From Physcomitrium patens (Eukaryota > Streptophyta > Bryopsida > Funariales > Funariaceae), in NCBI RefSeq assembly GCF_000002425.4, contig NC_037254.1:23903244-23967243 (forward strand): a DNA stretch of 64,000 nt, given 5' to 3'. The translations under genes were made by a program, and so were the position numbers. This document shows, piece by piece, positions 2,712 through 60,249 of the stretch. Below the pieces are notes generated by a model. The model did no database searches. It saw nothing but the letters and a program-made list of their open reading frames with translations, and was not told the origin of the DNA. Every line of letters starts with the position of its first letter. Position 1 is the first letter of the stretch.

Positions 2712-2889
2712 ACGGATACTAAATTTATGACACGGATCAATGAAAATCGGCTTAAACTTTATTATGCATAAACTCGGGATGGATTTGTTGTTACAAAAAG
2801 GAGAGTCAATCCAATTGATTGGACCATAGTAAGAAGTAGGAGGGGGACTCTTGACAAGAATTGTATTTTCTTTTGTGGTTAAGTAGAAG

Positions 2890-3306
2890 ATGAAAAACAT
2901 GGAGTCTGAGAAAATAAGAATGAAGACCGATTGGAAGAAACGACAAGAATGGCTACAGGTAGAGGTTGCGATATTACAGACTAAACTAGCCGCATTAGCA
3001 AAGGAGGCCAATAATTTAATATGGACCAATACGCCAGTTTCAGCGACAACACCTTCGAAGATACCTTTGAAATTGATAGAAGAATGGCAAAAGATGTTGG
3101 ACGAGCATGACAATCAAATTACCCGACGTGAGTCTCAGGTACGAAAATTGGATTTGTTGAATGAAGATTTGACGGCACGTTTGGATGGAGAACTATCGAA
3201 TATTGAGGCATACGACGAAGATGTAGTAGAAAAGAAGGTCAAGAATTCAAAGGGTGGTAAGCCAATGCCATTAACTAAAGAAGCCAATGCTGCTACGTCT
3301 TTATAA
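2890..3306 (+). CDS. extra 3' ORF of gypsy B1, coiled-coil protein
   Basis: This is an open frame of 138 codons between integrase and the 3' LTR. The product is highly charged, rich in K/E/L heptads (for example near residues 8-42 and 66-105), with no hydrophobic membrane segment or signal peptide. Related coiled-coil frames occupy the same place in the copies at 16194-17560 and 34436-35560. I do not recognise a named family. It is not envelope-like. It may be the 3' part of a longer protein whose globular N-terminal region is seen better in the other copies. Function unknown. Confidence 0.55.
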   Translation: MKNMESEKIRMKTDWKKRQEWLQVEVAILQTKLAALAKEANNLIWTNTPVSATTPSKIPLKLIEEWQKMLDEHDNQITRRESQVRKLDLLNEDLTARLDGELSNIEAYDEDVVEKKVKNSKGGKPMPLTKEANAATSL

Positions 3307-3358
3307 GTTGAGACTAAATAATGTTTGCAAAGATGCTGCACAATTAGGAGTGGGGCTA

Positions 3359-3924
3359 TGTAGAATAGGTAAATAAACTTTGTGGTAATTTACTGATTGG
3401 TTATTGACAACTTTGAGAATTAGACTGATGATTAAGTAGTTTAGTTGATAACAGTAGGTTGTTAGTGGAATAAATAATTAAGAATTCAAAGGATCATAAC
3501 CTTTGAAATCCGTTGGCTGACGGATCATCTTTTTGGTAGGATAAATAGGTTGAGGAAAGTAAGCCAAGAGCCAGACTATGAGAGTTGTAAGCCGAGAGCT
3601 AGACTATGAGAGTCGTAAGTCAACGTAAGCTTAGTGCTACTTCTTTATTTTCTTTGTTTTTATTATTTACTTATGAAGAATTATGATTGAGAGAAGTATT
3701 GTTGAATTGATAGTCGTAGAATGGATTATCTATTGAATCAAGATAGAAGTAGTAAGCCTTGATATTTTGTAGTTTGATAATTGATTTCAGATAGCCAGAG
3801 TATAGTCAATTGTGACACTAACAGATCTAATTCATATAACCAGTCTTTCCTATGTTTGAACCCACGTCTATTAGTTCAATTGCTTTGGTATATCGAAGCT
3901 TGAATGCAACGAGAACAACAAAGG
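3359..3924 (+). repeat. 3' LTR of gypsy B1
   Basis: It starts TGTAGAATAG directly after a purine tract, as at 17611 and (reverse strand) 34360. It carries the shared CTTGGTGCTA-like stretch (here CTTAGTGCTACTTC) and ends near AACGAGAACAACA. The right edge is uncertain by some tens of bases. It is more diverged than the 741-bp copies at 33620 and 62916. Confidence 0.7.
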
Positions 3925-4144
3925 GTCATCAATGTCTAATAAAGATGATTCTAAATATTTAAAAGTTATTACTAATAAGATCAATTTCAAAAGTCACTAT
4001 TAAAAGAAAATCAAGTTCTATAAATTCTAATAGAATCATTTTTTAAACAACATTTTTTCAAGGTAGTAATCTATCTACATCTTATAACCAATAAAAAACC
4101 ACTAACATAGTTGTCACCATATTGTCTGGTGTATTGTGTATTAA

Positions 4145-7744: not shown

Positions 7745-7821
7745 AAACTAAATTATATAATTAGAATTAAAAGAAAGAATTATTTTGATGGATGTTGAAG
7801 TATCCAATGATTTTAGACCGG
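7741..7821 (+). mobile_element. left fragment of gypsy B3 3' ORF
   Basis: The bases just left of the E element read as the same kind of protein as the bases just right of it (from 16194), and both correspond to the B-family extra 3' ORF at 35175-35411 (reverse). This places the E element inside a third B copy. The left edge is not defined. Confidence 0.65.
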
Positions 7822-8869
7822 TGTCGGGGTAGAGAGAGTTTGCCTCAAAAAAATATTGGGCTTCTAGCTATCACTAATTATTCAATGAAGTACTGATGTA
7901 TTCTTATTAACTTCTACAACAAATTTCAACTACAAATTCGTTGCAGATCTTGAGATATCTTGAAAACCCTAATAGTCACTTCAAACCCTTGTCTTTATAC
8001 ATCCACGTGCAATTTTCTTCATATCTCACAAAATATAAGCTCAAATACCACGAAATTTATATGTATAGCTTCTCAACACAAAAACTTATATTCTTCAAAA
8101 GTTTGAGCCAAAATTTCATCCCAATTCTCAAGTTATGGCTCCAACCATTACTACAAACAAAACCGCTTACTTATTGCCTTTGATTTGAAAGCGCCGCCTT
8201 CAACTCCTTACAACTCCTTCATATGAACTCCAAAAGCAATAATTCTTTCGTAAAAGATGTAGGCCTTGAAATTGCCGTTCCAATTGCACCTTCCGATCTT
8301 CAAAAGCTACTGTAAAACTCCTCGTACTCTCAAAAGAGTAACAGTATATCTTAAATAAACACCTTAACTTCAAATGGCTATAACTTTTTCACCTTAACTC
8401 CAAATCCTCTAATTTTTGCACACAAATTGTACCCGAAATCCTAAAATTTACAATCTTAGCTTATAATCTCCAAATGCCTCCGAAAGAGGAATCCTAATCC
8501 CTAGTAAGGCCTTGGGCAACGTCCTTGAAGCCCATTGGATATGGTATTCGACCAATAGGAATGAAGTTTTCCATTCCTTGCCTTCATCCAACCATGCTTT
8601 GCTTTTATTCCTCCGAATTAGCCTCCTATTAGTTTAGATTTTCATCCTTAGGCTTCTACCTTCTTCCAAGGCTTCATATTAAACAGTTAGGTCTTATATA
8701 TATATATTTTTTAATATCAAAATCAAAACAAGTAAAGAAACAAAGTAAAGTTTCTTAAACCAACTCTTTTTAATTTAATCTATTAGCCACTCTAACACAC
8801 ATCTAGATTTATTAATATATAATATATTCTAACTTATTTTTACACACTATAAGCATTTACTGTACGACA
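7822..8869 (-). repeat. 3' LTR of gypsy E1
   Basis: On the plus strand it reads TGTCGGGGTAGAGAG to GTACGACA, and it matches 14932-16193 over nearly all its length but is about 0.2 kb shorter. On the minus strand it starts TGTCGTACAG, following the family-A style of LTR start. Confidence 0.92.
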
Positions 8870-8959
8870 TCCACCTCCCTCCAAACCTGCACATCCTCTG
8901 ATATGTGCCACATGTTACTCTTCTTCATCTTCTTGAAATTTCTTTGAATTACTCATAGG

Positions 8960-10300
8960 CTCTTCTTCTTCATCTTCTTAGTCTAAATATTGAGGTAAGA
9001 ATTATTGAAGGTCTTCTATTTGAAATAACCTATCTCTTTTCTTGAAAGTTTTCACCCTCTTTCCTACTATTGGATTCCTTATGATAGATCCATCTAACTC
9101 ACGTAAAGTATATGTGGCATTATCATGTACTATAACCTCCACATATGGTCCAAACTATTTTTTTGTAAATTTCTTTATAGTACTTTGTTGATGCTCAAGG
9201 CTGCTATCATAAACTAGAATCCAGTCTCCAATCTCTATAGGCTTAGGCCTCAACCTATGAGTCTTATCAAATCTTTCTTTATTTTTCAATCTTACTTTCT
9301 TTAACCTCTCAGCTGTAATTTGTAGGTCTTTAGGTAACCTATCCAATTGTTGGATTTGAAGCTCCAATAATCTTTCTCTATTTATATCATCTTTTTAAGA
9401 TAAAAACATCCATGTAGGATAGGTTTCTTCAATTGGCATCATAGATTTTTGTCCTCACATTAATTCCATGGGCATAGAACCAGTGACAATACTGTGAGTA
9501 GTTCTATGAGCCCATAAAGCAAATGGAAGCAGTTTAGGCCATTGAATTGACTTACCTTTACATGCCTTAATCAATGCATAAATGATAGGAGGATGACCCC
9601 TCTCACTCTTTCCGTTGGCTTCAAGATTATAAGAAGTAATCAACTTCAATTGAATTCCATACCTGTTGAAAAATTCTCTTGCTTCAACAGCATCCAATTC
9701 TCTTCTATCAGCTCTCATCCTCCCAATGCTACCATATCTACTCAAGATGTCTTCCAATATAAATCTGCATATTACTTTTGTAGTCTTGGTTCTCAAAATC
9801 CGTCCTTTAACATAATTTGATAGCTCTTCTCTTACCAAAACCAAATATTTCATATCCCAAAGTCCTAATGGCATAGCTACCAAATCAATCACCCATTGAA
9901 AATGTATTGAAGGTGGATAAATAGGATGTAATCCATCTCTATACCTAACTTTAGATTGTAGTTGACACTCTGTGTAAGAGCTCACAAAGTCTTCTACATC
10001 CTTGAATAAATCCTTCTATCAATACCTTTCCTTGATCTTGATATATGTAGCCCAAACTCCTCTGTGCCCTGCCCAAAGTGTATCATGATATTCTCTTAAA
10101 ACCTTAAACTTAGTTTCAAGATCTCCTACTATCCTCAATGAGATTTTATCTCCTCATTTTGGCCTTTTTTATAGGAATCCATCTCTAAGCAAATAACCAT
10201 AGGATTGATGTCTAATATCTTTGAAGGTTTTATCCATCCATCCTTCTTGTTTCTTCATTGTACTTAAATAAATTCCAATATCCTTTAATCTACCTTTATA
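8960..10300 (-). pseudogene. gypsy E1 integrase
   Basis: Minus-strand frames carry an A-like integrase: a zinc-binding region near 9990-10100, a core with HFQWVIDLV, ADRRELDAVEA and GKSERGHPP (9455-9985), and a C-terminal stretch (9155-9367) with RLRPKPIEIGDW. The same order and wording occur at 153-1388, showing E and A are sister families. Fossil. Confidence 0.85.
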
Positions 10301-10318
10301 CAAACCTTCATAGAATTT

Positions 10319-10870
10319 TTAAACCTTATCACCAAAATTTATTCCACAAATAGCAAATAAATTTCCATAACTCTTCTCTTCTTGATCTTCACCTCCTTCG
10401 TGTGCCATCATTTCCTCTTTGAAGATATATCTAGCTCTAGACAACATAACTGCCACCAAGTTTTCTTTGCCAATGATATCTTCTAAAACAGGATTCAATG
10501 TTCTTATGTAGGTTATCCATCTTAACATGGCAATGTCTGGAGTAGTACAATTAATTATCATTCCAAGTAATGGTAAACAATCTATTTTCAAAACCATACT
10601 TGCTCCAATCAAATAATTCCTCTCAACCTTTAAAGTGGTGAGTGCTCCCAAAAGCTCTCTTTTAACTTGTGGATAAGCCCTTTGCCTCTTTGTAAGAGTC
10701 CTAGCTCCAAACCTTATAGCAAATCTTCTCCCTTCTACATCATCTAGTCTAATAGCCCATCTAATTGCTATAGGACTTGGATCTAGTGTTACAACCACTA
10801 GTCTTTCACATTGATAATCCAGTTGTCTAAGTAAAGGTGGTGAACTCAACATCTTTTTTAGGTTTTCCAT
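10319..10870 (-). pseudogene. gypsy E1 RNase H
   Basis: It removes the RNA strand during cDNA synthesis. The frame shows the family motifs VTLDPSPIAIRWAIR, QVKRELLGALTTLK, KIDCLPLLGMI and NLVAVMLSRARY, matching the copy at 46256-46690. It lies just downstream of RT on the same strand. Confidence 0.85.
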
Positions 10871-10899
10871 AGCTATTTTTTATTCTTCTTCCCAAACAA

Positions 10900-12310
10900 A
10901 TTCTTTATCCTTCTTTAATAATTTATATAGTGGCTCTGAGATATAGGGCAAAGTGAGGCACCCAAATGTGTTAGAATACACATGCTCCTAAAAACCTTTT
11001 GGCTTCAGTAAATATTTTTATAAGCCTTGATTCTAGATATAGCATCAATTTTATCAGGGTTTGGTTTCCTACCATACCTGCCACTCATGTGTCCCACCAC
11101 TAGAATCTCATCTACTCCAAAGCTTGATTTCTCTAAAGATAACGTGAGATTAACTGATTCCAATCTCTCCAATATTCGAGCCACATCTTCAATATGCCTC
11201 TTAACAAACTTTCTACAACCTTCAACCTCCATAGTCTCATCTTTGTCTTCTTCTTTATTTCCCTTTATAGGTATATCATCCAAAAACGGTATAGTTTTTT
11301 CAGGATTAAATTCTTTCAATATTTGGTTCATAGCATTTTACATATGAGCCATTGAGTTGGTTGCACCTTGAGGTAAGGTATACATCCTCATTAAACCCAA
11401 AGGAGTCTTAATGGTAGTTAAGTCCCTACTCTCTTTAGCCAATTAAAATTGGTCATATCCCGAATATAAGTCTCCAATAGAATACATGGCATGACTTGTA
11501 AATTGTTCAACCACTTCATCTACTATAGGACCTGATCTCATATTTCAAATAGTTATTCTATTTGCAGGTTGCATATCCTGAATAAACCTTAATGCCCTTG
11601 ACTTCTTGGGTACTGTGAACCATCTATTAGAATAGGGAGCAATTGAAGGTTCTAAAATACCCATCTTCACCTTCTCTTTTAATAGTTCTATCAACTTTGG
11701 AAGTAAAGCTCTGGGCACAGGTATAGGCTTTAAATCCCATGGAACATACGACATAGTAAAGATTACCATAGGTACTACAATATTAGGATCTCCACATCGA
11801 AATTCATCAGCAGTTGAGGCAAATGCCTTACCATGCCTAATAAGCATTTTTTGAAATATGATTTTTTCCGTTGATGTCAAGAAATCATCCCCTCTAATCT
11901 TCAATTTAATTAATGATTCTTGAATAAATTGATGCCCAATTCCATGTCCTTCCCTTAGATTTGGCTCCTTAATTGCTTAGTTGATATGATCCAATGTATC
12001 AACTAGAAATTGAGTAGCTATAGGCTTTATCTTTCTTACTACAGTTTTATATTTAGTTTGTACTCTAGCTTTATATTTCAATCTATAGCTTGTAGCAAGT
12101 CCACCAATTACGACTATCTTTTCTAATTCTTCATAAGTCTCTCTTGAATATATTTCTACTATAGTATTTCCATCTATGTTTATAGCTAAATTTTCAAGAA
12201 CCTTTATCAAATCATCTTCTAAACCTATTTCTTCTGTTACTCCAACTATGGCTTCATCACTTGAAACTAAATCCACTCTTTTTAAGTTTTTTTCTTGTTT
12301 CTTCACCCTT
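10900..12310 (-). pseudogene. gypsy E1 reverse transcriptase region
   Basis: The RT palm is spread over several minus-strand frames: VPRALLPKLIELLKEKVKMG and WFTVPKKS near 11600-11720, and the catalytic FLDD motif near 11270-11290. The upstream part (11977-12306) is the linker between protease and RT. It agrees with 43085-46190 of element A2. Fossil with several breaks. Confidence 0.83.
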
Positions 12311-12459
12311 ATTCTATGTACAGAATCTAAATCTTTAATCTTTCAAATATTCACAAATCCATTATTAGTCAAGTTTAAAAATCCAAAATTTATATTATCT
12401 ACAATGAGGTTTGTAGATGACTTATTTGTACCCATCTGTCCCTATTCTATAAGGGTGCC

Positions 12460-12880
12460 TTCTAGAAATCCACAAAATTATTTCTTGGCTCCAAAGGCAT
12501 CCCTCTTAATTGTTCTCTATGCCTTTCATGAATAGGTTTCACAATAAACAACTGCACAGCTTTTCTTCCATCCCAACTATGAATCCTGGCATAATATAAA
12601 CCATCATCCAAGACTCTAGTTTTCATTCTAGCAGTTGTAATATAAGGTTGACCAAGTATTATTGGGTATGTAGCAGAGTTTTGCATGAAGAAATTTTGCT
12701 CCACTTCCAAATCTCCAATTCTAGTCATTACAACTGGGTAAGCTCCGTATAAATCACCTTGTTGGTTGTTTGCAGCTCTAATTATCCAACCATGATTGGT
12801 ATCAATTGGCCACTTATTTTTCTCATATATTTACCTTGACATGATATTGATTTTTGATCCATGATTAACTAAAGCCAAAA
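12460..12880 (-). pseudogene. gypsy E1 protease region
   Basis: The retropepsin active-site neighbourhood (LVNHGSKINIMSR) ends the frame at 12831-13352. The downstream ILGQPYITTARM stretch lies in 12462-12728, as in A2 near 42420-42690. It processes the Gag-Pol polyprotein in live relatives. Fossil. Confidence 0.75.
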
Positions 12881-14877
12881 TTGGATCTTTAGAATCTCTC
12901 AACCTTACATATGTCTCCGTAGCAGCTCTAGCGCAATAAAAAATTGAATAGCTACTACTTCCCATTCCATTATTATCACATTTAGAAAAAGTATTCATAC
13001 ATGCTTCTTGTGCATTCTTCTTTATCTCAATAATTTTCATAGATGCATATTTCATTTGATGCTCATCTATAGCTTCTTCATATTTATTAAAAGCCTCATT
13101 CTCCATATCAACCTTAATTCCAGATTTTGGTATTGCAAATTGTGCAAATACTTGCCCTATCTCTTCTTCCTCATCGATAGTTACTTGAGTATCCAATGCC
13201 TCTATCATAATAGCTTCAACTGTCATTTGCCTCTTCTTCTTTATTACATTGATGATCAGCTCATGGAAATCCTTTTTAGCTATACCAAGAGTCTCTCTCA
13301 GAGTGAATTCAATTTTTGCATCTAAGATCTTTTCCTCCAAATTGCTCTTCATATCTGTAGATGTTTCAATGTCAGATTGAAGCTTATAAGCAAGATTTTT
13401 ATCTTTAGATTTGTTTGCATCATCTTTTTTTTTCTCTTTGCTCTTCTCTCACCACTCTTTTGGTAATGTTGCACTACCAGGATGAATAAAAGAAGGTATT
13501 TTCTCCGATTTTTACTCCTTAAAAGCTTCTTTGTTTCTTGGAGATCTCTTCTTATTTTTAGGCTCAATAACATCTTCTTCATGAATAAATCTACTTCTTT
13601 TTTCTTCAACCATGGCATCGTGTAAATCATCATCATATTTATTTCCGCATAAATATGCTTTAATACTAATAGCATCAACTGGATCATTCCACCCAGTCAT
13701 TTTTCTGATAGCTTCAGCTCCCCTGATCATGACTTCTGTAGTTGGTAGGAAAATAGCCTTAAGTACTTATTGTTCAATTGTAACAAAGTAAGACTCAGCT
13801 CTTTTTCCTTGTATGGTATTATTTCTTCATATTTGCTCCTCTACCAATTTTTTCATGCCACCCTTCCCAAAATTTGTCTTTAAATGCTCATCTGACCCTG
13901 TGAGTCTTATCCTGCCCTCTTTGAAGTATATAATACCATCCTTGATAGCACCTTTGTAGCTGTCACATTCACCACGCTAGTGGTTTGGATTGTCACACCA
14001 CATATATTTCTCTACAAATCCTTTTGAACCTTCAACTACCTTTGATGAGCTTACTATCTGGGATTTCTTCAACTCAGTCATTTCTACCTTCAAATCTTGT
14101 ATGCCTTTGATCAATTCTTCAAGAGTACCATCATTAATAATCTTGATCATCCTTTGAGGTGGTCCTTTATTCTGACATGTAGGCACTGGTTCCAATCTTA
14201 ATATTAAACCACGAGTCTTAATCTTCTGTTGTTTAGCCAAAAGTCCCACAATTTCTTTTACTAGCTTCCAATTATTTGTAAAACCACTCTCAAATGTCTT
14301 ATCTGCTAAATAAAAGAGAAGCTTATCTTCCAAATATTCATCAGCTGCTTATAAAAATAATCTAGTTTTTTTTATTTCCAAGAGCTGCCTCTCTTGTTGT
14401 GATAATTGTCCAAACTTGGTCTCAAATTCCCTAATTAATTCATTTGAAGCCAATTGATTCCTTGGCCTTTGCTCAATCCACTCCAAAAAAAGTCTGTCTT
14501 GTCATTCCTTCTGAATCTTCTTCAAAAAATTCATCTTTCAAGAGTTCTTCAAATTTCTTCTATGATATAGTCTCAGAATGTAACTCTTGCACCATTTCTC
14601 TGATTTCTAGTACCACTACCAAATCAAAGGTGGTAATCATCTTCATCTCTGAAACTTGATGCACCTCTATTTCACATGTGTAAATCCTTAAGAACTTGGT
14701 GATATTCCTTCCATCAAACCTCTCAACTTTGTCTACTACTACTTGTAAGGCCTTAGTAGTATTTCTATCCTATCCATGCACCTGTTGCCTTTCTTCGATA
14801 AATTGAGCAAATATCCTAAATAAATCATGGACACCCAATCCTCTTGATAATCCAAACCCTAGATTTTGATCCCCCAT
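12880..14877 (-). pseudogene. gypsy E1 gag
   Basis: A minus-strand gag that starts close to the 5' LTR. A start codon lies at 14875-14877, about 55 bases inside the LTR. The first part is the capsid-like gag domain. A C-X2-C zinc-knuckle start (YMWCDNPNH) lies near 13977-14010, and a charged K/E-rich linker runs toward protease. It aligns with 40521-42170 of A2. Fossil with several breaks. Confidence 0.8.
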
Positions 14878-14931
14878 TTTAACTTGATGAAAAATCAGTG
14901 CCTTAAGGCTCTCTCAGTGGAAGCACTAATA

Positions 14932-16193
14932 TGTCAGGGTAGAGAGAGTTTGCCTCAAGAAAACTCTAGGCTTCTGGCTGTCACTAATTATTCAATCAAG
15001 CTTGAAAATAAGAGAAGCCCTAATTTTATATATAATTTTTTTCTTTTGAGTAATTACACCAAATACACAATCCTCAAGTAACCCACAACTTCCAAAATAT
15101 GATAAAAACTTCTAAAACCTTGTTTATTCTTATGTGGAGATTTTTTAGAACTTCAACACTTCATATCTCCTAATCCGACCATCCAAACAAACTCAAATTT
15201 TACATGAAGTACTAATGTATTCTTATTAACTTCTACAACAAATTTCAATTGCAAATTCGTTGCAAATCTTGAGATATCTTGAAAACCCTAATAGTCACTT
15301 CAAACCCTTGTCTTTATACATCCACGTGCAATTTTCTTCATATCTCACAAAATATAAGCTCAAATGCCACGAAATTTGTATGTATAGCTTTTTAACACAA
15401 AAACTTATATTCTTCAAAATTTTGAGCCAAAATTTCATTCCAATTCTCAAGTTATGGCTCCAACCATTACTACAAACAAAACCGCTTACTTATTGCCTTT
15501 GATTTGAAAGCGCCGCCTTCAACTCCTTACAACTCCTTCATATGAATTCCAAAAGCAATAATTCTTTCATAAAAGATGTAGGCCTTGAAATTGCCATTCC
15601 AGTCGCACCTTCCGATCTTCAAAAGCTACTGTAAAACTCCTCGTACTCTCAAAAGAGTAACAGTATATCTTAAATAAACACCTTAACTTCAAATGGCTAT
15701 AACTTTTTCACCTTAACTCCAAATCCTCTAATTTTTACACACATATTGTACCCGAAACCCTAAAATTTATAATCTTAGCTTGTAATCTCCAAATGCCTCC
15801 GAAAAAGGAACCCTAATCCCTAGTAAGGCCTTGGGCAACCTCCTTGAAGCCCATTGAGCATGGTATTCGACCAATAGGGATGAAGTTTTCCATTCCTTGC
15901 CTTCATCCAACTATGCTTTGCTTTTATTCTTCCGAATTAGCCTCCTATTAGTTTAGTTTAGATTTTCATCTTTAGGCTTCTACCTTCTTCCAAGGCTTCA
16001 TATTAAATATTTAGGTCTTATATATATATTTTTTTTAATATCAAAATCAAAACAAATAAAGAAACAAAGTAAAGTTTCTTAAACCAACTCTTTTTAATTT
16101 AATCTATTAGCCACTCTAACACACATCTAGATTTATTAATATATAATATATTCTAACTAATTTTTATATATTATAAGCATTTACTGTACGACA
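14932..16193 (-). repeat. 5' LTR of gypsy E1
   Basis: TGTCAGGGTAGAGAG to GTACGACA on the plus strand, 1262 bp, the full-length version of the E LTR. It is the partner of 7822-8869 and is close in length to the solo E LTRs at 30173-31424 and 36669-37920 (both 1252 bp). Confidence 0.92.
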
Positions 16194-17560
16194 CCGGGAA
16201 GTTATTTCAAAGGTAGCATGTTGTCATTTGAGAAGGGTCAAAATTGGCGAATGGAGGAAGCACTTACATCAAAGCTTATGGAATAGATGTGTTTTATTCA
16301 AAAGTGGTTAGGTTTGAATTGACACAGCATGTACATGTCCAAACGGCTATTATTTGCTGTAATAAGAATGCTTAGATGTATGATGTTTAATTAGAAAACT
16401 TTTGTAGCAACTAGAATCCATGGAGAAATGAAAGCCAAGCAAAAGAGGAAAAAATTTGCATCTTAGCTGTGCTCCAATTATGTGACTTTGTGATTGCATA
16501 TATGTTGAGTCAAATACTATCAGTAAGAGAGAAAAATATATCCTCTCCAATGCTTCTACAAAGTGTTTGGAATTTAATGGTACTTACAACTAGTCTAGGA
16601 GTCGTGGTGTACGAAATTAGAGAATCAAGTAAGTCATTGGAATAGGAGGCTATACAACAGATTACACCAAAATAGGTTCTAATTCATTCAGCGATGGAGG
16701 CGGGGGCTGAAGTTTTAGTTTTGATGGACATAAATTAATTAGCGTTTCTATAGGATAGAACAATGGAAAGAATGAATCTCAAGGATATCATATTCGCTCA
16801 AATTTTTCAATTATAGCTCACGGTGAGTAAACTAGATGGAGAGAGAAATTTAAAGCAGCAATTAGAGATAAGCAAGAAAGTAATATTGGAGCAAAGCTGC
16901 CAAATTAAGGAATAAGATCAAATTATCTAAAAAAATATAAAATCTAAGTTGCTATTAGAGCATAAATTTGAAAAAAAATATGAAGCTTAGAAAAAAGAAA
17001 AAGAATACATTCAACGTATCATAGAAGGCCAAATACAAGATCTAATCTAGATTCGTAATATATTAATATTGGAAAGAAAAAGACTAAGTATCAATTAAAA
17101 ATTAAAAATAAAAAAATATCATTATTAGAACAAGAAAAGCAAACATCAGATGTCCAGTATAGATTTGATACAAAAAAATTATGGATAGAAATTAAAATCT
17201 TAAAAGCTATAGTAACAAAATTGGAAGGTGATTTAGTCAGTATTGGTTAATCATAGATGTCTATTCCTTTTGTTTCAATAATTTATGAATTAAAGGAAAA
17301 AGTGAGGCAACAACAACACTATTTGGAAGCAAAAGATGTTAGAATTCTACAGTTGGAGGCTTAAGTTTGTGAATTGGAAGCATATAATGAGGGTTTATCA
17401 GTCCAATTGAAGAAAGAACTAATAGAAGTATCGAAGGAGGATGAAGACTTATTATTAGAACCGAAATTAATAGAACCACCTATGGAGAATGTTGAAATTG
17501 ATCAATCTAGTGAGCTAAAGGGTTACAAACTTTGTAAGGATTTTATTGAATAAGTTTATT
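16194..17560 (+). pseudogene. gypsy B3 extra 3' ORF, right part
   Basis: It continues the B-family 3' ORF to the right of the E1 insertion. The first third reads as a globular region (SYFKGSM, then a W/F-rich stretch). From about 16780 the reading is K/E/Q-rich coiled coil (for example EYIQRIIEGQIQDLI near 17005-17050). The same two-part organisation is seen on the reverse strand at 34436-35560. Heavily broken fossil. Function unknown. Confidence 0.65.
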
Positions 17561-18395: not shown

Positions 18396-19413
18396 TGTCT
18401 TGATGTAATACGACTATATAGTGAAATTATAATCAAAATTGAATTTCTACTTAATATCTAATTATCTTAGTTCAGTTATAATTTGAGGTATCTAAATGTG
18501 GCTTCTATAAAAGCTTCTTAGGTTATTTTCTTATCTTAATAGTTAGTAGGTTGAAGGTTAGTTAATAATTTTACCTTCTAGATTGTAGAGACTCTTCTAC
18601 TACCTTAGATAGACTATAAATTGATAAAATGAGAATAGAAGAGGTAAATGGTTGATATGGTTGATACTAAGGTCAAGTAAAGGATAGAATTGGGCTAAAA
18701 AATCCTTAGAATAAGTTAGATTGGTACCCGGGGATTGACCATTTGTAAGACATGGTCGAAATCAAACCTCTACTCATTAAAACGACCGCCAAGGACAAGT
18801 TAAGGAATCATTTGAAGATCAGAGGATAAGATTTGAGATTTAGCTTTAAGTTCTTTCTTAAGGCATAAGGATTGTTTTTGGAGGGTTTTTGAAGACTTAG
18901 CAATTTTTTTTTGAAGTCAAGGTTTGTATTAGTGATTTGGATTTTATATTATATAATTAGGGCTAGTAATTTTGGCTAGTTTATGCAATTGGTGTAACAT
19001 CTACAGTTGAAAATTTGATACTATTTGGATTATTAGATGTGCTAAGCGTATAAAAAATTTTATAATAATCTAATGGTGAGGTTTAGAGATATCTAATTTT
19101 TAGTATAAGAGGATTTTGAAAGAAGGCAGTTTGAGGTTGGATAGGGTTTTTATGATATCCAAAGATCTATCAATCAGATTAAGGTGAAAATTGGCATGAT
19201 ATTGAAAGACTTGAAGATCAAGCTATACACCAATTTTGAAACAAAGTTAATGGTTGAAAATGGAGAAATCACTGTTGGCGACTGAGTGACATTAGTACAA
19301 ACAATTTTTGGAGGTTTTCTCACAATATGTAAGTTGGATTGGACTAAAAGTTCTTGAGCATATAAAAGAGTTATATTGACTTTTGCATGTAAAATTCTGC
19401 ATCAAGTGGACGG

Positions 19414-40416: not shown

Positions 40417-40520
40417 TAAGTGGTGAATCCGACGTGAAAGCTTGAGGTAGAAGATATTGGATTTCATTTGATTTTATTTTTATTTTTATAGAGAATGAAA
40501 ATAAAAATTTTGAAGGATCT

Positions 40521-42170: not shown

Positions 42171-42179
42171 AGGCAATTA

Positions 42180-43084: not shown

Positions 43085-43630
43085 TTGGAATTGATTACAT
43101 CTATTGGGTTAGGGGATAATGATAAGATTGTTGAGATTCTTTCAAGAGAGTTTTATACCATACTTGAATCTTTTCAAGCACCAGAAGTCACTGTAGAGAT
43201 GAGATATAAAACGGCAGATAAGAAGGTAAAGCCTGTTGTCGGACCATTACCAAAAGATTCTAAGGAACAAATGGAAGAAGCATCAAAAAAAGCAAGTTTA
43301 AGAGATCCAATGAGAATTGAACATCAGTTTACTAAAGAGACTTTTGAAGAAATGAAGATTGATTCTAATGGTTGTTTATTGCTGGAGGAAATTACTTGCT
43401 TCAAAAAGATGTTGGCTAAACAAGATAGATCGTTTGCCTTCAAATCTTATGAAATTGGGTGTGTGGATCCGAATATTATAACAACTATGGTTATCTTCAC
43501 TATACTGCATGTACCTTGGAATCTAAGACCGATTCCAGTACCAAGGGCATATTTACCTAAATTGGTGGAACTATTGAAAGAAAAGATAAAGATGAAAATA
43601 TTAGAACCCTCATTTGTGTTGTATTCTAGT
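43085..43630 (+). pseudogene. gypsy A2 RT, N-terminal part
   Basis: The frame reads through the protease-RT linker into the RT fingers (VPWNLRPIPVPRAYLPKL, then KMKILEPS), matching 11545-11904 of E1. It stops at solo LTR X; RT resumes at 45486. Confidence 0.85.
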
Positions 43631-45485: not shown

Positions 45486-46190
45486 TTAGTCAATGGTTTA
45501 CGGTACCTAAGAAGAATGGGTCACTATGGTTTATTCAAGATATGCAATCGATGAATGCAGTAACTGTCAGGAATACAAGAATTAGACCTATTGTGGATGA
45601 ATTTACTGAGACGTTTGCTGGAAGGGCGATCTATTCAATGGGTGACTTGTATTCAGGTTATGATCAATTTCAACTTGCCGAAGGAAGTAGAGATATGACA
45701 ACGATGAAGACACTACTTGGATTGGTTAGAATGTGCACTCTTCCTCAAGGCGCGACCAACTCAGTTGCGCATATGATGAATGGGATGAATAAGGTATTGA
45801 GAGATTTTATTCCGGAAAAGACTATGCCTTTTCTGGATGATGTTCCTATAAAAGGGTGCAGAGAAGGAGACAAGGATGAAACTTTAGATAAGAGGGGGTG
45901 TCATAAATATGTTGTTGATCATATACAAGATTGTGAAAAGATTTTAACTCGACTTGGAGAAGTTCATCTTACATTATCGAGTATGAAGTCCGTATTTGGA
46001 ATACAAGAGGTTGTGATTGTTGGACATTTATGTGGATCTTACGAAAGAAAACCAGATCCGACTAAAGTTGATGCAATTGGAAGGATGAAAGAGGATTGTG
46101 ATTCTTTAATAGAGGTTCGTAGGTTTTTAGGTGCATGTATATTTTATCGAATCTGGATCCCTCATTATGCTCACATAGCGGATCCATAAT
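45486..46190 (+). pseudogene. gypsy A2 RT, palm part
   Basis: The frame 45542-46189 carries the RT palm: AIYSMGDLYSGYDQFQLAEG (first aspartate region), LPQGATNSVAHMMNGM, and the catalytic FLDD (near 45830-45842), then VGHLCGSYERKPDPTKVDAI. It matches E1 10950-11560 in reverse. Confidence 0.9.
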
Positions 46191-46255
46191 ATGAACTGTT
46201 ACGTAAAGGCTACCGATTTAAATAGAAAGAAAGGCATATTCAAGCAACGCAAAGA

Positions 46256-46690
46256 TTGAAGAAATTATTCATGTCACCTCCAATATTGAAGAAGGTTGAT
46301 TATAAGTGCAATAGACCAGTGATTTTTACTGTGGACGCTAGTCCAATTGCCATTGGATGGGCTATGGGTCAAGATGATTTAAGTGGGAATAGATTTGCAG
46401 TTCGATTTGGAACTAAAGTTTTAAGTATTCGTCAGCATGCATATTCGGAAGTCAAAAGAGAACTTTGGAGAGTTGTTTTGGCTATGAAAGCTGAAAAGGA
46501 CTATTTGATTGGGGGAGTAGTAGTAATTGAAACAGATTGCTTGCCATTTCTTGGAATGATTACTAACTGTTCAATGCTAGATATTGCAATGTTGAGATGG
46601 ATTTTTTATATTAAGTCACTAAATCCAGAATTTAAGCATGTTACTGGGAAGAAAAATTTAGTAGCAGACATGCTATCTCAAGCAAGATAC
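46256..46690 (+). pseudogene. gypsy A2 RNase H
   Basis: Four acidic positions are readable: VIFTVDASPIAIGWAMGQ, EVKRELWRVVLAMK, IETDCLPFLGMI and NLVADMLSQARY. The spacing is typical for Ty3/gypsy RNase H. It continues in frame into the integrase linker. Confidence 0.9.
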
Positions 46691-46699
46691 GAGAGGGAG

Positions 46700-48060
46700 G
46701 ACGAAATGGTTGAAGACATTGATGACGTCGGATTGAAATTCTATTCAATATCAAATCTCAACAGAGAAGACAAGCTATTTCTTGAAGAATCTTATGAAAG
46801 AGAATTATTGGATATTGGTCATTACTTGAAAACCTTGACTAAGCAGGGGAATTGGTCTACAGAAAAATTCAAACAAATAAGAAAAAAAGCATATGGATTT
46901 TTACTTCGAGATGGATTCTTATGGAAGAGACTGAAGAAAGGAATTGGGATGCCACAACGAGTGACAGGCAAAAAGGAAGAAAAACTAAAATTATTAAAGG
47001 AGTTTCATGATAGTTTATGGACAGGGCATAGAGGAATCTGGGCTACTTTTGCTAAACTCAAGGAACGATATTGGTAGAAAAATATGTATCGAGATGTACT
47101 CTCATTTGTAGAGTCATGTGAAATTTATCAATCGTATTCTAATATCCAACATCGAGATGGTCTTTATCCTACGTATCCTCTAGCTATTCATTTTAAATGG
47201 GTTGTTGATTTGGTTATTATGCCAGTTGGGTTATGGCAGATGAGATATTTAGTCTTAGCTCGTGAAGATTTATCAAATCAAGTAGAAGGAAGAGCATTGA
47301 GGACAAAATCTACAGAGGAGATTTGTAGGTTTTTGCTTGAAGATGTCATTTGCCGCTACGGATGCGTAGGAAAAATCACTGCAGATCATGGAGAATTAAA
47401 TGCATAAGAAGCTCGTAAGTTCTTTGAAAGATGTGGAGTTGAACTATCATTGACTATTGCTTATAATCCAGAAGGGAATGCAAAAAGTAAACATGGTCAC
47501 CAACCGATTATAAAAGCATTAGTTAAAGCTTGTAATAGGAAAGTTAGAGAGTGGCCACGGCTTTTGTCATTTGCATTATGGGTTGATCGAACAACACATA
47601 GTTCAGTGAGAAGATAAATGCCAGTAGAACTTATGACAGGTCAAAAATCAATTATACCGATTGAAGAAAAGGTACTTACTTGGAGTATGCTACCATGGGA
47701 AGATGGATTGACAAGAGAAGAACTTCTGGCTATTAGGATTCGATAATTGGAGCAAAGAATAGAAGATGTGTAAATAGCATTAAAAAGGTTAAAAAGAGCA
47801 AGGTTACAAAACAAGGCGCGATTCGATAAGCAACATCGATTGAGACCTAAAGCAATCGAGGAAGGTGACTGGGTACTTGTTTATGACAATAGTCTGGATA
47901 AGCAACATAAAACTTTGTGGAAATTTTCAAAACGTTGGTTTAGACCATATGTAGTAACAACTATTCATGATAATGCAACTTACTCATTACGGGAGTTAGA
48001 TGGTACAAAATTGAAAATATCAATTGCAGGAAAGTGAATAAAAATATTTAAACGAAGATA
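46700..48060 (+). pseudogene. gypsy A2 integrase
   Basis: Linker, zinc-binding region (HDSLWTGHRGIW, then CEIYQ), core (KWVVDLVIMP, ITADHGEL, then a K/E-rich stretch near 47480) and C-terminal part (RLRPKAIEEGDW equivalent, RPYVVTTIHDNATYSL near 47940-47990). It is nearly the same as 1-1388. Fossil. Confidence 0.88.
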
Positions 48061-48246
48061 CGCGGAGATGAATATGGAAGACCTTAATGAAGGTATAGAG
48101 ATTCCGCAGCAAGAAGATGAAAGTGATTTGGATAATGAAGGTGACGAAGATGAACTGAACAAAGACGTAGAGAATATATTATAAATCAAAGAGCAATTGG
48201 GTAAATTGGTGTATATCGGAGGATGCACAGGTTCAGAGAGGGTGGA

Positions 48247-49411
48247 TGTTGTGTTGTAACACAAATATACTGTGAAAATATAAAGAAAGGGGACTTTTAT
48301 TAATGTTCAGTTACCTCGAATATTGGGAGCAACGACCGATTCCAGTGCCAATATTCAAGGGCCAATTCAGACACCCCGTCACAGTCGGTCATGGCATATT
48401 TACCAATAACAAAATGCTCCGTTCGAGTCCAATAGTGGGAGTCAACAGAATCGAAAGGACTAAATTGATGATTGAGCAAACCTAACGCGAAGCACCAATT
48501 TGACCCAATTACAGGAACATCAAGATTTTACTACAGGCCTCTTAGCCAATATGAGATCTTATTTGGTCGGACGACTCAATGTGGTTCTGATTACGAGGGT
48601 TTTGATTCTGTTTCAGGCTATCCTGTTCTCTGTGCCATTTCAAGGAACGTTGTTTCTGGAAAAAAAAACCTTTTAAAAGGTAAAAAATGGAGGAAAAAGC
48701 TCTGACGGCGGAGCCAATTCCGGATCTAAGACAAAAGATTGAAGAAATTCAGAGGCTAGGATTTGAAAGAGGAGAGAATTAAGATTAAAGAGGAGGATAG
48801 ATTAAGAAACAAAGCGAGGGAGAGAATTAGGGTTTTAAGGGTTGGAGAGCTAGCTTCATGCTTCGGGGAGGGGAGGGGGGGGGAGAGAAGACAGAGAATT
48901 GGGGTTTTTTTTTTTTTTTTTTTTTCTTCATAGGATTTTTGGGAAGACGGAGGCAATTGTCGCTGAAAGTCAGTGTTATACTGGTGAATCGGGGTTTTAA
49001 TGAGGTAGGTGTGATTATTCTTGACTATTTTGTGAAATCAAAATTACGTCTATGATTGAAGAATTAAAAAGGTATCTATAGAATTGAGTATGCGGAGTGA
49101 ATGAAAACTTTTGGGTTAATCTAACAAGACAGTCAGTGAATACAAGGTCGTGAGTATAAAGCAGTATCGGAGATTAACAGATTGGGTTGTTCGGGGTTCT
49201 CTGTAACGTCTAGAGACCTACCGGCTGGGGCAAAAAGGATTTCGACGAGCAGTCGAAGGACATCTCTATAGATTTATGATATATTTTTATAATTATTTAT
49301 ATTCCAATAGTCAAGAACCGATAGACTGCTTGAATATTAACGAATCTCCATACTACCTTCTACAGCCAGACGCCCGGTGCGTTCTCAAGCAAGAAAGTAC
49401 GTAATATGACA
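48247..49411 (+). repeat. 3' LTR of gypsy A2
   Basis: TGTTGTGTTGTAACAC to GTAATATGACA, 1165 bp, after a purine-rich AGAGAGGGTGGA. Partner of 39240-40416. A T run lies near 48905-48925 and the GAGTATAAAGCA word near 49153. It carries the same B-like gag-protease segment (about 48430-48700). Confidence 0.93.
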
Positions 49412-49415
49412 GCAC

Positions 49416-53621: not shown

Positions 53622-54350
53622 GTTTCTTAGTATATTTCAGTGGTTCACAATACGATTAATTGTGTGATCATAACAAATAAAACTCATGCACTTAGTCTTT
53701 TTCTATGTTGGAATTCTCCTTTACAGCTTTATTCTGAAGTAAGAAATATTTCGTATACTAAGAAATATTACAATGCTTTCTCCCTATAATAATACTCCTT
53801 CATCAACTAATAACAACAGTGTGTAATCCTGCACTCTCAAAAGACCGCTCAAAATATAATAATTTCCATCCAACACCAAGAATAATAGACTTCATTCCAA
53901 CAATCTGAATTCACATAATACATGTAATCACCAACTTTTTTTGTCAAAACATACACAAATCTCAATAAACAACAATCATAATCTTCCAATAACTCTTCAT
54001 ATAATTCAATCACTCAGTGCTCCAATTACATAATCAATAATTCATAAATCAATCTCTGATTTATTCCACAAACTCACTTCTCAGTATTTAGAAACTATCC
54101 ATTACTCTTCAACAACAAAAAAACAAAGAGACAAAGAGGTAGTACCAAGCTTATCCCAGCTCATGACTATTACAATTTAGTACTAAGACTAATTTCTACA
54201 ATTCTTATATACTTACTTCCTATTCCCTGATTTTGACCATAATCTTAAAATTAATCACTTTTAATAACTAAATTAATCATTTGTCCTCCTGAATTGACTG
54301 TTCTATGGACTATTAGTCTATTTTATCAATATTTTATTAATATCTTACAG
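53622..54350 (-). repeat. 5' LTR of gypsy B
   Basis: It matches 33620-34360 over most of its length (for example CTGCACTCTCAAAAGA and GTAGTACCAAGCTTA). It is internally rearranged, with a small segment in the opposite orientation, and its outer edge does not preserve the usual TGTAGAATAG start. The right flank is copia D1 integrase. Confidence 0.78.
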
Positions 54351-55111
54351 ATTAGTAAGAAGTGCAATATTAACATGTTCTTTACTGACTTGAGAAAAGA
54401 TGTGATTTATTCTTTTGCTCCAAAAACTCAACATCACGGCTTTTGATGATCTTTTTGGTCTCCAAAAACATGAACCTATAAGCCTTTGTACCTTCACAAT
54501 ATCCAACAAACACACATTTTGTACCTTTTGCATCAAATTTTGATCTCATATAATATGGTGTCTTTCTATATGCTATGCATCCACAGGTCTTTATGTGGAA
54601 AACACAAGGTTTTTTTTTTACTCTAAGCTTCTTTCAGAGTCATTGATGTATAAGTACGTCTAAGATACCTATTTTTTGTATAAACTGCATTTATGACTAC
54701 TTCTGTCTAAACTCATGTCATAAGTATTGGGCATGAAGCATACTCCTTGTCCTCTCCACAATAGTTTAATTTTCTCTTTCAGCAACTCTATTTTATTGTG
54801 GAGTGTAAGGAGTAGAGGTTTATTTTGCAATACCATACATCTTCAAGAAATCATTGAATTGCTTTGACATATACTCACTTCTATTGTCTATATGTAATAT
54901 TTTGATTTTGCTCTCTCATTACTTCTCCACAAGTGCCTTAAACTACTTAAACCTTGTGAAATACTCCCTCTTTACTTTGAAGATGAAAATCTATACCTTC
55001 TTTGAAAAATCATCAATAAATGTGACAAACTACCTTATACCTCCTATTGATGGCATCCTCATAGGTCAACAAACATCAGAATGGACTATCTCCAACAACT
55101 TGGTTGCACGT
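54351..55111 (-). pseudogene. copia D1 integrase piece
   Basis: It corresponds to D2 at about 57815-58912: a hinge part and an integrase core (the IYSLLLSICN-side frames are shadows; the real frame is on the minus strand with KRINHIF and a DDFSKK-like stretch). It is the continuation of D1 from 32544, with C3 and gypsy B in between. It ends at LTR F' after ACGT. Confidence 0.7.
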
Positions 55112-55891
55112 TGTTGTCTTGTAACATGACTATATGATAAAAGAAGATAATATGGATCTTATTATAGAAGAGCCAAGTTAAAATATGAAGTAAAAAAATA
55201 TGGATAAAAGATAGGAAGGTAGTAAAACTTTTAGAAGTAATGCTATCTTTTAAGAAAGGTGACTTTTACTTACTTTGTTGGACCATAAATAAGAAAAAAT
55301 AAAGTAAATTAAAAAAATAAAGGATATGAATATTTAAAGGAGAATGTTAGGAGTTTATTTTTACAAAAATTAATTCAAAAAGTTAAAATTTGATATTTGA
55401 GGAGGACTAGTTATCAACTTGGATCAAAATCAGACCCAAGGCACAAAACTGAGTACCTATGATAACTCGGCGGTTCTTTTATAAATCAAAGAATGGAATT
55501 TGATAGCAGATCAGATAAGATTTTTAAAAAATTATTTTTGTATGATTTGGATTTATAATGACTTTGTAAGAGCTTTATAAAGTTAAGTTTGTTTTTGGAT
55601 GACTTGTGTTTTATGAAATAAAATAGAGTTAACGTTTTGAGCAATATCAAGAGTTTTGTAATAAATCTACAAATAAAATTTTGTAGGTAAATGGTTATAG
55701 TTGTGCTTAATATGTATTGTAAATTTTAGCTTTGATCTATTTGTTCAATTGAGGGTTATTGAGGTTTAAGTGGGTTAAGATCTCAAAAAATAGAATTTTA
55801 GGTCTAGTGAGGGTTTTTAAGATTTCTTGCAATCTACTAGTTGCATTAGAATAAAATTTAGTTGTGAGGATATTAGACTTGTTTTCCTACG

Positions 55892-56217
55892 TATTGAAGA
55901 AAAGAAGTCTAAAAACTACAAATACTTAGCATTAGCAAGGATTTTACTTTAAGAAAAGTGTGGAGAAAGATGTCTCTTATTTCTAATACCTTTAACTTAT
56001 AGGTAGAATTTACATTCCAACTACATGGACTTCATCCACAGTCACCTTCATTCTTTTAACTAAATCTAAATTCATCTTAACCTAGCTGCCACCATAAAAT
56101 TCTAGTTGCCGCTATAGTAACTTCTTTTAATTCTTTGCTAGCTTTTGACTATTAGCAACTTACGATGATGAATCTTCATGTGGTGGTAACTAAGTAAGAA
56201 CTTACTGATCTTCAACA
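55892..56217 (-). repeat. 3' LTR of copia D2
   Basis: TATTGAAG to CTTCAACA on the plus strand, 326 bp. A purine tract (AAAGTAGGAG on the minus strand) adjoins it, and the end of RNase H lies 19 bases away. Confidence 0.9.
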
Positions 56218-56235
56218 CTCCTACTTTATTAATTT

Positions 56236-58912
56236 TCAAAAGGTTTTTAATCCTAATCTCTGAATCAAGTCATGATGTCTATCCTTTACTAATGCCTCAG
56301 TAAGCACATCAACAAGCATATCATTTGAAGTAAAATACTTCATACTTATTATTCCATCTTCAATCTTCTCACATATGAAATGATGTTGAACATCAATGTC
56401 TTTAGTCTCTGAGTGGTGTTTTGAATTCTTAACAAATATAAGACATCTTTGATTATCACACATAATTAGAGTTACTTCTTATTACATTAGACTAATGTCT
56501 TCTTAGAGTTGTCTTATCCAACATGCCTCCATTGCACAATGATTTGCTGCCATATACTCTAATTCTATCGTTGATCTTGCAATGGTAGGTTGTCTCTTAC
56601 AATTCCATGAAATGGCTCTTACTCCAATGAAGAAGATATATCTTATTGTGGATCTTCTATTATTTGCATCTTCAATCCAATCTGCATCACAATAACCTTG
56701 CAAATCAATGTTCTTACCACCAAGGCACAATTTGAAGTCTTTTGTACCTTTTAAGTACCTCAATATCCTTTGTACCATTGTCCAATGCATTCGTCCAACT
56801 TTAGACATGTATTGACTTACAACACTTACCACATATGCAAGATCCACTTTTGTGGCTACCATTGCATACATGAGTGAGCTTACTGCTTAATTGTATGGAA
56901 CACTTTGCATCTCACCTTCAACTTGTACAAACTCCTCATCCGTGAGCTTCATCAACTTCTAATTTATCTCCAAGGATGTTCGAATGGACTTGCACTCCTC
57001 CATGTTGAATCGTTTCAACACTTCTTCAATGTACTTGGTTTGGCTCATTGTAATAGTCTTATTACTGTGATTTCTTATAAATTCCACTCCCAAGTAATAG
57101 TATAATTCTTCCAAATCACTCATCTCATATTCTTTCTCTAATTTGGCCTTCATCCAATCTATCTTTTCCATATTCTTAGCAAAGATGATCAAATCATCAA
57201 CATAAAGGATTACAATCAACAAGAACTCTCTAGATTACATGACATACAATGAATGATGAGCCTCACTCCTCACAAACCCTTCATTGACAAAGAAGGTGGT
57301 AATTCGTTGGTACCATGCCCTTGATGATTGTTTCAATCCATACAAAGATTTCTTCAATTTGCACACAAGATGTTCTTTGTATTATTGTACAAATCCTTGA
57401 GGTTGGTCTATGGAGATGTCTTCTTACAATTTTCTATTGAAAAAGACCGTCTTCATATCTATTTGGTGTATTTTCAAATCCATTGATGCTCCAATTGCTA
57501 CAATGATTCTAATAGTGGTGAATTTAGCAACGGGTACTTGAGTCTAATTGAAATCAATTCGAGCAACTTGTGAATATCCTTTGGCAACTAATCTTACTTT
57601 GTGCTTCACCACCACACCCATTACATCTCTTTTAGTCTTAAACACCCACTTACAACCAACACTAGATCAATTTGCTGGAAGAGGTGCCAATCCCCATGTA
57701 CCATTATCCATAACAGATTGGTTCTCTTCTTCCATAGTCTTTTTTCACTTAAGTGCATCTTCACACTTCATAGCATCACACAAAGACAATGGATCAGTAA
57801 AAAGAACAACATTTACATGTTCTCCACTTACTTGAACAAAGATGTGATCCTTTCATTATTTGCCATGTTGCCTTCTTTCTTTCAAAGGATATTTCCTTTC
57901 ACTTGTAGAAGAACATTCATATTATTGCATTTTATGTTCTTTTCCAACCTTCTTTCATCTTAAACTTTGTTGTTTCTCACTCAATGGTTGGTACTCTTCA
58001 TCATTATCATCATCCCAATCTTCAACACCTTCATTTCTTTCATTGCTGCTCCTCGCAATTGTAGGAGCCTTCATCTTTTCAACTTTCTTTGGCTTTTCAT
58101 CTTCATTATCTTCATTATCTTTATCTTCTTGTTTCTTTGGTGAAACCAAAGATGTATCTATAAACACACCATTACTCCCACTTAGATACATCTCCAAGTA
58201 CTCACAAGCACTCTTGTACTCCAAAAACTCAATATCACGACTTTTGATGATCTTCTTGGTTTTCAAGCACATTAGCCTATATGCCTTAGTACCTTCACAA
58301 TAACCAAGAAACATACAATTTATACCTTTTGCATCAAGTTTGGATCTCATACAATCTAGTATTTTTGCATATGCAATGCAATCAAAGGTCTTCATATAAG
58401 AAATGCAAGGTCGCATCCCACTCTAACCTTCTTGTAGTGTCATTGATGTAAGAGCACTTGTTGGATACCTATTTCTTGTATACACCGCATCCACCACAGC
58501 TTCTGCCTAAAATTCATAGCCAAGGTTTTGAGCATGTAGAATGCTCCTTGTCATCTCTATAATGGATTGATTTTTCCTTTCAGCAATACTATTTTATTGT
58601 GGAGTGTATGGACTTGTGGTTTGTTTAGGAATTCTTTCATTCTTCAAATAAACATCAAATTGCTTAGTCATATACTCACCTCTATTGTTCATATGCAGCA
58701 CCTTGAACTTGCATTCACTTTGTTTCTTAACAAGTGCTTTAAACTCTTTAAACCTTCAAAAGCATTCACTCTTGGCTTTAAGAATGTAGATCCAAATCTT
58801 TCTTGAATAATCATCAATGAAAGTAAGAAAATACCTTGATCCTCCAATACTTGTGTTCTTCATAGGTTCACATACATCTGAATGGACAATCTCCAGTAAC
58901 TTGATAGCACGT
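56236..58912 (-). pseudogene. copia D2 pol (integrase, RT, RNase H)
   Basis: Minus-strand order: integrase near 58998-57950, including the frames flanking C2 (AIKLLEIVHSDVCEPM, YFLTFIDDYSRK); RT near 57650-56900 with the catalytic YVDD (ILYVDDLIIF near 57190-57220); RNase H near 56871-56236 (GYCDADWIEDANNRRST, MCDNQRCLIF, HIDVQHHF-like end). Typical Ty1/copia domain order with integrase before RT. Fossil. Confidence 0.88.
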
Positions 58913-60245
58913 TGTTGTATTGTGGTTCGGCTACTATATGAAAATAATATAATTATGTATTTAATATATAATTCATTAAGTAACATGATGAGAGCCATAT
59001 TAATAGATTTTAGTTGGTTGTAGAATATAATTTGATTATTACCTTGAGAAGAGGTTGTCTAAAAAGATTACTATAGAATTTGTAAAATTTTAATTTCTTT
59101 TTGATAGTGGCTTTTAAGATTGGTTTTGGTTGACAGTAACTTCTAAATATTTAGAATCACCTTTATTAGACATTGGTGACCTTTGAATACTTCTTTTGGT
59201 TCTTTTATTTGGTGTTTAGAGCATAAATTATATAAATTGTATAAGAAAAAGGATTGAAGAAGGATTTTGGTAGCAAAGGGAGTAATTAGGGCACCAATAT
59301 AGATGAATGGAGATGAATAATGAAAATCTCCATTCCTATTGGTCAAAAACCATGACCAATAGGCTTTGAAGAGGCTGCCCGAGGCCATATTAGGAATTAG
59401 GATTAGTATCTCGAAGAAATTCGAGCTTTGAAGGCTAGGGTCAGTAAGTTTAGGTTTTTGGTTATGGTTTTGGTATAAGTTTTGTATGGTTTGGAGTTTA
59501 TATGAAGGAGATACAAGCACTCAAAGTTAAGGTATTGATATGGGAGCTACTGTCCTTCTTTTTGGCATAACGCATGCATACGGATAGCAATTGAGGATCG
59601 GCGATTGCGACTAGAGAAAGAACTTTTGCGGCTACACTTTTCACATACTGCTTACTAGATTTCAAGTTGAAGTAAAGGAACTATTAGATTTTGAAGTCAG
59701 CACTTACAATCTAAGAATAGTAAGTAATCCGATTTGCTAGTGGTTGTCTCTTAAGCTATATTTTAAGCAATTTGACAAGGTGTTGGCTCAAAATTTCAAA
59801 GAATGTGTAATTTTATGTAAGTAAATTTTGTGCATAAGTCTTATGACATTTGAGTATTAGGTTCCTGAGATATTAAGAGAATAGTGTTCAGATGCTTATA
59901 AATTAGGATTTAAAACATCTGCTAGGATTTCTTACATGCCAAAAGATTAGGAGTGAATTTGCAATTGGTTTTTTTTGTGATAAAATTGAAAGGTAAATTC
60001 TACCTATCTTGTAAATTTGAAACAAACTGAATGGTTAGATCAAGAGTCATGATTTTCTAAAGTTCGGGACAAAAAAACCCTTCATCCGAAAAATATGTTT
60101 TGAAGGGATTTTGTTATATTTTGAGTTTTATGCAAAATAAAGGAGTTTTGGGAGGCTAAGACAAGATTCATATAAAGATTTAAGCTACACTCTCTACAGC
60201 TAGATACTTAATATATTCACAGATAACAAATCATGCTATACAACA
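58913..60245 (+). repeat. solo LTR C2
   Basis: TGTTGTATTGTGGTTCGG to ATGCTATACAACA, 1333 bp, matching C1. Flanks ACGT (58909-58912) and ATGT (60246-60249) are a 4-bp duplication with one CpG change. It is inserted in copia D2 next to the start of integrase. Confidence 0.9.
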
Positions 60246-60249
60246 ATGT

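Follow-up and report, generated by a model that had tools for sequence, protein, structure and literature searches.

Why do several families of long terminal repeat (LTR) retrotransposons in one stretch of a moss genome stand between 4-bp duplications with CG at their center? The stretch in question, hereafter the window, comprises 64,000 nucleotides of Physcomitrium patens (contig NC_037254.1, positions 23,903,244 to 23,967,243) and contains members of families A, C, E and F, for which an initial annotation had proposed 4-bp duplications made by a lineage of integrases that join their target across CpG. The insertions of these families duplicate 4 bp with a central CG, and many of the flanks now read TG or CA at this position. 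The account we favor, to which we assign an overall probability of about 80%, is that a single non-chromodomain lineage targets CG-centered 4-bp sites through its intasome and that the duplicated sites are later eroded by deamination.

The principal evidence comes from pattern searches of the whole assembly (470.4 Mb). Exact matches to a 19-base pattern for the family A LTR start were counted genome-wide, yielding 3186 matches, 1226 of which are preceded by purine-purine-A, as expected where a 3' LTR adjoins its polypurine tract, with perhaps a few host flanks among them. Within the remaining 1960 flanks, the center is CG in 1609 (82.1%) and a pyrimidine-purine step in 1923 (98.1%). By comparison, CG lies at the center of 1.1% of the 4-mers in the window. 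A sample of 53 unique host flanks from family A 5' ends contained 45 CG, 7 TG/CA and 1 TA centers, with CG occurring 0 to 3 times at each of the other ten offsets; the same ceiling of three applies to every non-target offset across the samples of all four families. At the 3' ends of family A, 9 of 30 loci fetched by pattern lead on to the primer site, and the 21 that remain comprise 17 CG and 4 TG/CA centers, while all fetched loci together provide 45 CG and 9 TG/CA among 54 unique flanks.

The other families exhibit the same preference in varying degrees. Family E (363 copies in the genome) has 52 CG, 27 TG/CA, 4 TA and 3 other centers among 86 flanks, family C (880 copies) has 40, 48, 4 and 5 among 97, and family F (1844 copies) has 44, 39, 4 and 7 among 94. 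The control, copia D2 (354 copies), has 0 CG and 6 TG/CA among 76 flanks at the same offset. The initial annotation had suggested a genome-wide comparison of this kind, with copia D among the controls, and its expectation is borne out for this control, since a CG center is strong in A, E, C and F and absent from all 76 copia D2 flanks. The copy numbers of E, C, F and copia were obtained with patterns that allowed two or three mismatches and excluded G at one outer place. The samples were non-random, as each consisted of 100 rows chosen by closeness to the pattern or by contig order. From these we removed 43 polypurine rows by expression, 1 more by eye and 3 duplicates for A; 5 polypurine-side rows and 9 duplicates for E; 3 duplicates for C; 3 rows taken as the primer-site side and 3 duplicates for F; and 23 rows taken as the internal side and 1 duplicate for copia. 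Two of the removed copia rows, ATTATATCTAA and TTCTTATCAAT, resemble host flanks, and both lack CG at the offset under test. As a separate observation, many E ends and several A ends within one contig stretch of the assembly (contig C1, 1.97-2.41 Mb) share identical flanks on both strands, which suggests that this stretch is a large repeated or inverted block.

Paired flanks give the length of the duplication. Among 22 family A copies read on both sides, the two 4-mers are identical in 13, differ solely by a change from CG to TG/CA in 4 and differ otherwise in 5. CG is kept on at least one side in all 22 pairs, a result hard to square with elements that often insert at TG or CA directly. The duplication is 4 bp rather than 5, as exemplified by a copy (L054) with CACCGG before it and CCGGTA after it. 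These pairs were drawn from loci L009-L088 after merging segmental duplicates (L052 with L059 and L058 with L054, L052 itself reading CCGT/CCAT); the remaining loci in this series did not match at both ends, lay on an internal side or duplicated a copy already in the count. In 12 of the 22 pairs (L070-L075 and L077-L082), the 5' flank lies 7.1-7.4 kb away on the same strand and was assumed to belong to the same element.

Across the 181 intact targets there are 15 different NCGN forms, the most frequent being ACGT (44), ACGG (32), CCGT (22), GCGG (13) and CCGG (12). When both strands are taken together, A stands first in 181 cases, C in 104, G in 46 and T in 31, and no further motif was found in the next four bases of these targets. 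A deficit of G at the fifth outside place is no motif, since it stems from the H used in the search patterns. The share of TG/CA centers climbs from 7/53 in A through 27/86 in E and 39/94 in F to 48/97 in C, which we read as loss of CG by deamination of methylated cytosine in the older families, the family ages being presumed.

Within the window, all seven paired 4-bp flanks reported by the initial annotation (A2, E1, E3, F, C1, E4 and C2) were located, as were its two half-sites at A1 and F' and the 5-bp duplication of copia D2. The features are as follows.

1451 to 2711, plus strand: A1, the 3' LTR of a Ty3/gypsy family A element that enters from the left window edge, recognized by self-BLAST and its ends; end inspection places a polypurine side before it and the half-site ACGG (2712-2715) after it.
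51 to 887, plus strand: zinc-binding part and catalytic core of the A1 integrase, from a Pfam Integrase_H2C2 match, relatives in the PDB and the lineage alignment; stop codon at 885-887.
888 to 1388, plus strand: C-terminal part of the A1 integrase with a GPY motif and no chromodomain match.
39236 to 49415, plus strand: A2, a family A element (39240-49411) between GCGC (39236-39239) and GCAC (49412-49415), found by self-BLAST.
7818 to 16197, minus strand: E1, a family E element (7822-16193) with target duplication CCGG/CCGG, found by self-BLAST; LTRs at 7822-8869 and 14932-16193, integrase at 9455-10015, coding strand minus.
36665 to 37924, minus strand: E3, a solo LTR (36669-37920) between GCAG and GCGG, its strand set by comparison with E1.
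30169 to 31428, plus strand: E4, a solo LTR (30173-31424) between ATGC and ACGC, on the strand opposite to E1, with an ambiguous right boundary.
28813 to 30172, plus strand: C1, a solo LTR (28817-30168) between ACGC and ATGC.
58909 to 60249, plus strand: C2, a solo LTR (58913-60245) between ACGT and ATGT, lying in copia-like sequence.
19410 to 20901, plus strand: F, a solo LTR (19414-20897) between ACGG and ACGG.
55108 to 55891, plus strand: F', an LTR that begins after ACGT (55108-55111) and is broken by copia D2.
55887 to 61951, minus strand: the control copia D2 (55892-61946), with an SH3_retrovirus domain, sitting in F' between CTACG and CTATG.

The LTR ends are clear for A2, E1, E3, F and C2, while the terminal letters of C1 are mutated (TC...TA), and every mismatch in the seven pairs is a C/T or G/A difference at CpG. 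E4 is a weaker case, with a degraded right LTR end and an altered first letter. It directly adjoins C1 (28813-31428), and its left ATGC doubles as the 3' flank of C1; on what seems the simplest reading, the target of E4 was the 3' duplication of C1 itself, such that the order ACGC-C1-ATGC-E4-ACGC would derive from one ACGC site. Two kinds of repeat in the window lie outside this series. One is a family with TGTC...CTACA-like ends at 33614-34360, 53755-54336 and 62916-63662, two copies of which were inspected and have flanks with neither a clear duplication nor NCGN; the other is a set of degenerate internal repeats in AT-rich DNA at 25902-26884, offset by about 170 bp.

Some sites appear to have been used more than once. 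F' and C2 belong to different LTR families, and their ACGT sites (55108-55111 and 58909-58912) occupy the same position in two paralogous copia-like copies that are 77% alike over the 131 aligned bases ending at the site. Likewise, two A flanks are identical to E flanks over 12 bases, namely CCGGGAAGTTAT and ACGGTCCCTATT. The former is the site of both E1 and the family A copy L070, and the same 14 bases, starting with CCGG, follow E1 (window 16194-16207) and L070 (1153-1166). Eleven more seven-base cores are common to different families, some of them presumably by chance. Given these flank identities, paralogous repeats seem to be struck at the same CG by different families.

Judging from their described features, A, C, E and F most likely form one non-chromodomain Ty3/gypsy lineage that corresponds to the Phygy clade of mosses. 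The internal part of family A has Pfam matches to RVT_1, RT_RNaseH and Integrase_H2C2, and the two LTR starts of a copy lie about 7.1-7.4 kb apart, A2 being 10.2 kb long with broken reading frames. No chromodomain match was obtained at an E-value of 0.1 either in the open reading frame encoding the C-terminal part of the A integrase, whose end is 62 bases short of the LTR, or in five relatives, some of which do not reach the C-terminus; the C-terminal part of the A integrase has a sub-threshold match to SH3_Tf2-1. The integrases of A and E1 align as one lineage, and the relatives with named sources among the 120 matches listed come from the liverworts Riccia and Calypogeia. For a host GRAS gene, the 120 matches listed include no P. 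patens entry; Sphagnum is the best named moss at 79-80%, other moss entries reach 88% and most of the flowering plants score about 66-69%, a pattern that indicates a moss other than Sphagnum. The LTR ends are also similar among the families, starting with TGTCGT or TGTTGT.

By sequence, the closest solved structures to the A integrase are those of prototype foamy virus (PFV) and Ty3 integrase. PFV integrase is the best solved match (E-value 2e-14), with an alignment that spans residues 14-265 of the A query and matches the residues we take to be the catalytic D, D and E. An ADRGEL motif follows the second catalytic aspartate in 20 of 29 aligned integrases, with ADRREL in E1 and GAA opposite GEL in PFV. 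The glutamate of this motif was entertained as a reader of the target center; it aligns with the PFV alanine after the second catalytic aspartate, presumably Ala188. In PFV, the bases touched by Ala188 lie three positions away from where the ends are joined (PMC4422553), and the idea was therefore dropped.

Based upon these parallels, insertion could be envisaged as follows. A foamy-virus-like intasome would join one LTR end to each target strand with a spacing of 4 bp and, as in PFV, would bend the DNA sharply at the middle two of these base pairs. A flexible pyrimidine-purine step would then be needed at the center, as with retroviral integrases, and base contacts by the integrase may narrow this center to C-G, favoring A or C on its 5' side and T or G on its 3' side. 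Inserted copies would later be silenced and methylated, and the CG of the duplication would be lost by deamination.

A competing explanation is that the integrase, or a tethered host partner, reads methylated CpG, in which case the elements would be aiming at silenced repeats. The 16 upstream host flanks tested for family A are indeed all repeats (each matches at least 5 other fetched records, and some of the 16 are mutual duplicates of one another), moss repeats are CG-methylated, and the decay of target copies from CG to TG/CA indicates that the sites were probably methylated at some time. This decay follows insertion, however, and consequently gives no clue to whether a site was methylated when the element arrived. 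The repeat nature of the 16 flanks fits insertion into repeat DNA as such and does not separate intasome targeting from the reading of methylation. Their mean CpG observed/expected ratio, 0.65, exceeds the 0.42 of the window, which weighs against this explanation. Moreover, a chromatin tether would place insertions near a CG, not exactly across it; the exact centering and the preference among 4-mers indicate the intasome instead. We therefore consider targeting of methylated CpG unlikely, and its more specific form, a putative integrase that directly reads 5-methyl-CpG in the target and uses the host silencing mark as a landing site, a shade less likely still.

Two further explanations concern the data themselves. 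NCGN could belong to the element, with misplaced ends and a CG that is part of the LTR, given that the LTR ends carry similar letters (ACGACA at the 3' ends). Yet the 4-mers vary among copies, in 15 intact NCGN forms, and still recur on both sides, 13 of the 22 pairs being identical, whereas the internal side of the LTR has polypurine or primer-site letters; NCGN as LTR sequence is thus refuted by the paired flanks, leaving this explanation a negligible chance. Alternatively, only copies that landed at CG might survive or be recognized, through selection or search bias. The samples do favor rows that resemble the pattern most or come early in contig order, and young copies are found more readily by exact patterns. 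However, the same method found no CG in the 76 copia flanks, the family A count spans the whole genome, and the LTR patterns leave the flank letters free save for the G excluded at one outer place, all of which renders such a bias highly improbable as the source of the CG centers.

Several observations nevertheless weigh against the intasome account or parts of it. Centers that are TA or other occur in 1/53 A, 7/86 E, 9/97 C and 11/94 F flanks, and 37 of the 1960 family A flanks genome-wide lack even a pyrimidine-purine center; rare direct insertion at TG or CA may also take place. Five A pairs differ outside CpG, namely L009 (TCGT/CCGT), L071 (CCGG/CCGA), L077 (GCAT/GCGC), L082 (ACGT/ACGC) and L072 (ACGT/CCGG). 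Changes of the C/T or G/A kind would account for all but L072, whose mismatch perhaps arose through recombination. Families C and F are known from their LTRs, the part that was examined, and we infer their membership of the A/E integrase lineage from the similar LTR ends. Finally, the AlphaFold model of a relative's integrase (P0002, 29-row alignment) is poor, with a mean predicted local distance difference test score of 60 and a predicted template modeling score of 0.30.

CG-centered 4-bp targeting is not new, as it was already published in outline in 2019. The Phygy clade of Physcomitrella patens is described as inserting preferentially at NCGN, in contrast to the remaining LTR retrotransposons of plants, whose duplications are highly variable (Neumann et al. 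2019, PMC6317226), and Phygy duplications are reported to be mostly 4 bp, with GC-rich centers in the 4-bp duplications (Jedlicka et al. 2019, PMC6911290). The name Phygy also occurs in the account of a liverwort genome (PMC12885004). The families here share with Phygy a Ty3/gypsy identity, the lack of a chromodomain and 4-bp NCGN duplications, and the published description, which was the basis of the comparison in place of sequence, revealed no difference. In the accessible text of the Phygy paper a single sentence deals with the motif, and the whole-genome count, the TG/CA decay and the first-base order A, C, G, T do not appear there; that paper was the sole relevant one in the accessible literature on NCGN and retrotransposons, and the available portions of a P. 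patens element paper (PMC7466625) and a Ty3 intasome paper (PMC8632968) contain nothing on NCGN. A study of transposition and methylation in Cryptococcus (PMC12810828) has no bearing on the question.

Two other systems provide instructive comparisons. Ginger1 DNA transposons encode a Gypsy-type integrase with a GPY/F motif, have TGTNR ends and generate 4-bp duplications that are CCGG in 75% and CCGT/ACGG in 24% of cases (Bao et al. 2010, PMC2836005). As described, they have terminal inverted repeats and the stricter CCGG target, whereas the families here have LTRs and a reverse transcriptase. CCGG accounts for just 12 of our 181 intact targets and CCGT or ACGG for 54, and the commonest form, ACGT (44), falls outside the Ginger1 forms; neither the inverted repeats nor the CCGG or CCGT/ACGG specificity that mark Ginger1 membership are found here. 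PFV likewise makes 4-bp duplications and prefers a central pyrimidine-purine step (PMC4422553). Its reported preference, however, is for flexible pyrimidine-purine steps in general, whereas the family A center is CG in 82% of sites.

To the published outline, the present analysis adds a whole-genome count, a copia control, paired flanks, a decay series and the comparison with Ginger1. The CG center held in common with Ginger1 offers a lead on the kinship of Gypsy integrases and Ginger transposases. Were 5-methyl-CpG read directly, this would be a case of an LTR retrotransposon exploiting a host silencing mark for its landing. With thousands of LTR copies in the lineage, and with centers in family A that are 82% CG and 98% pyrimidine-purine, these elements of a laboratory moss constitute a good system for studying how an intasome reads target bases and whether methylation plays a role.

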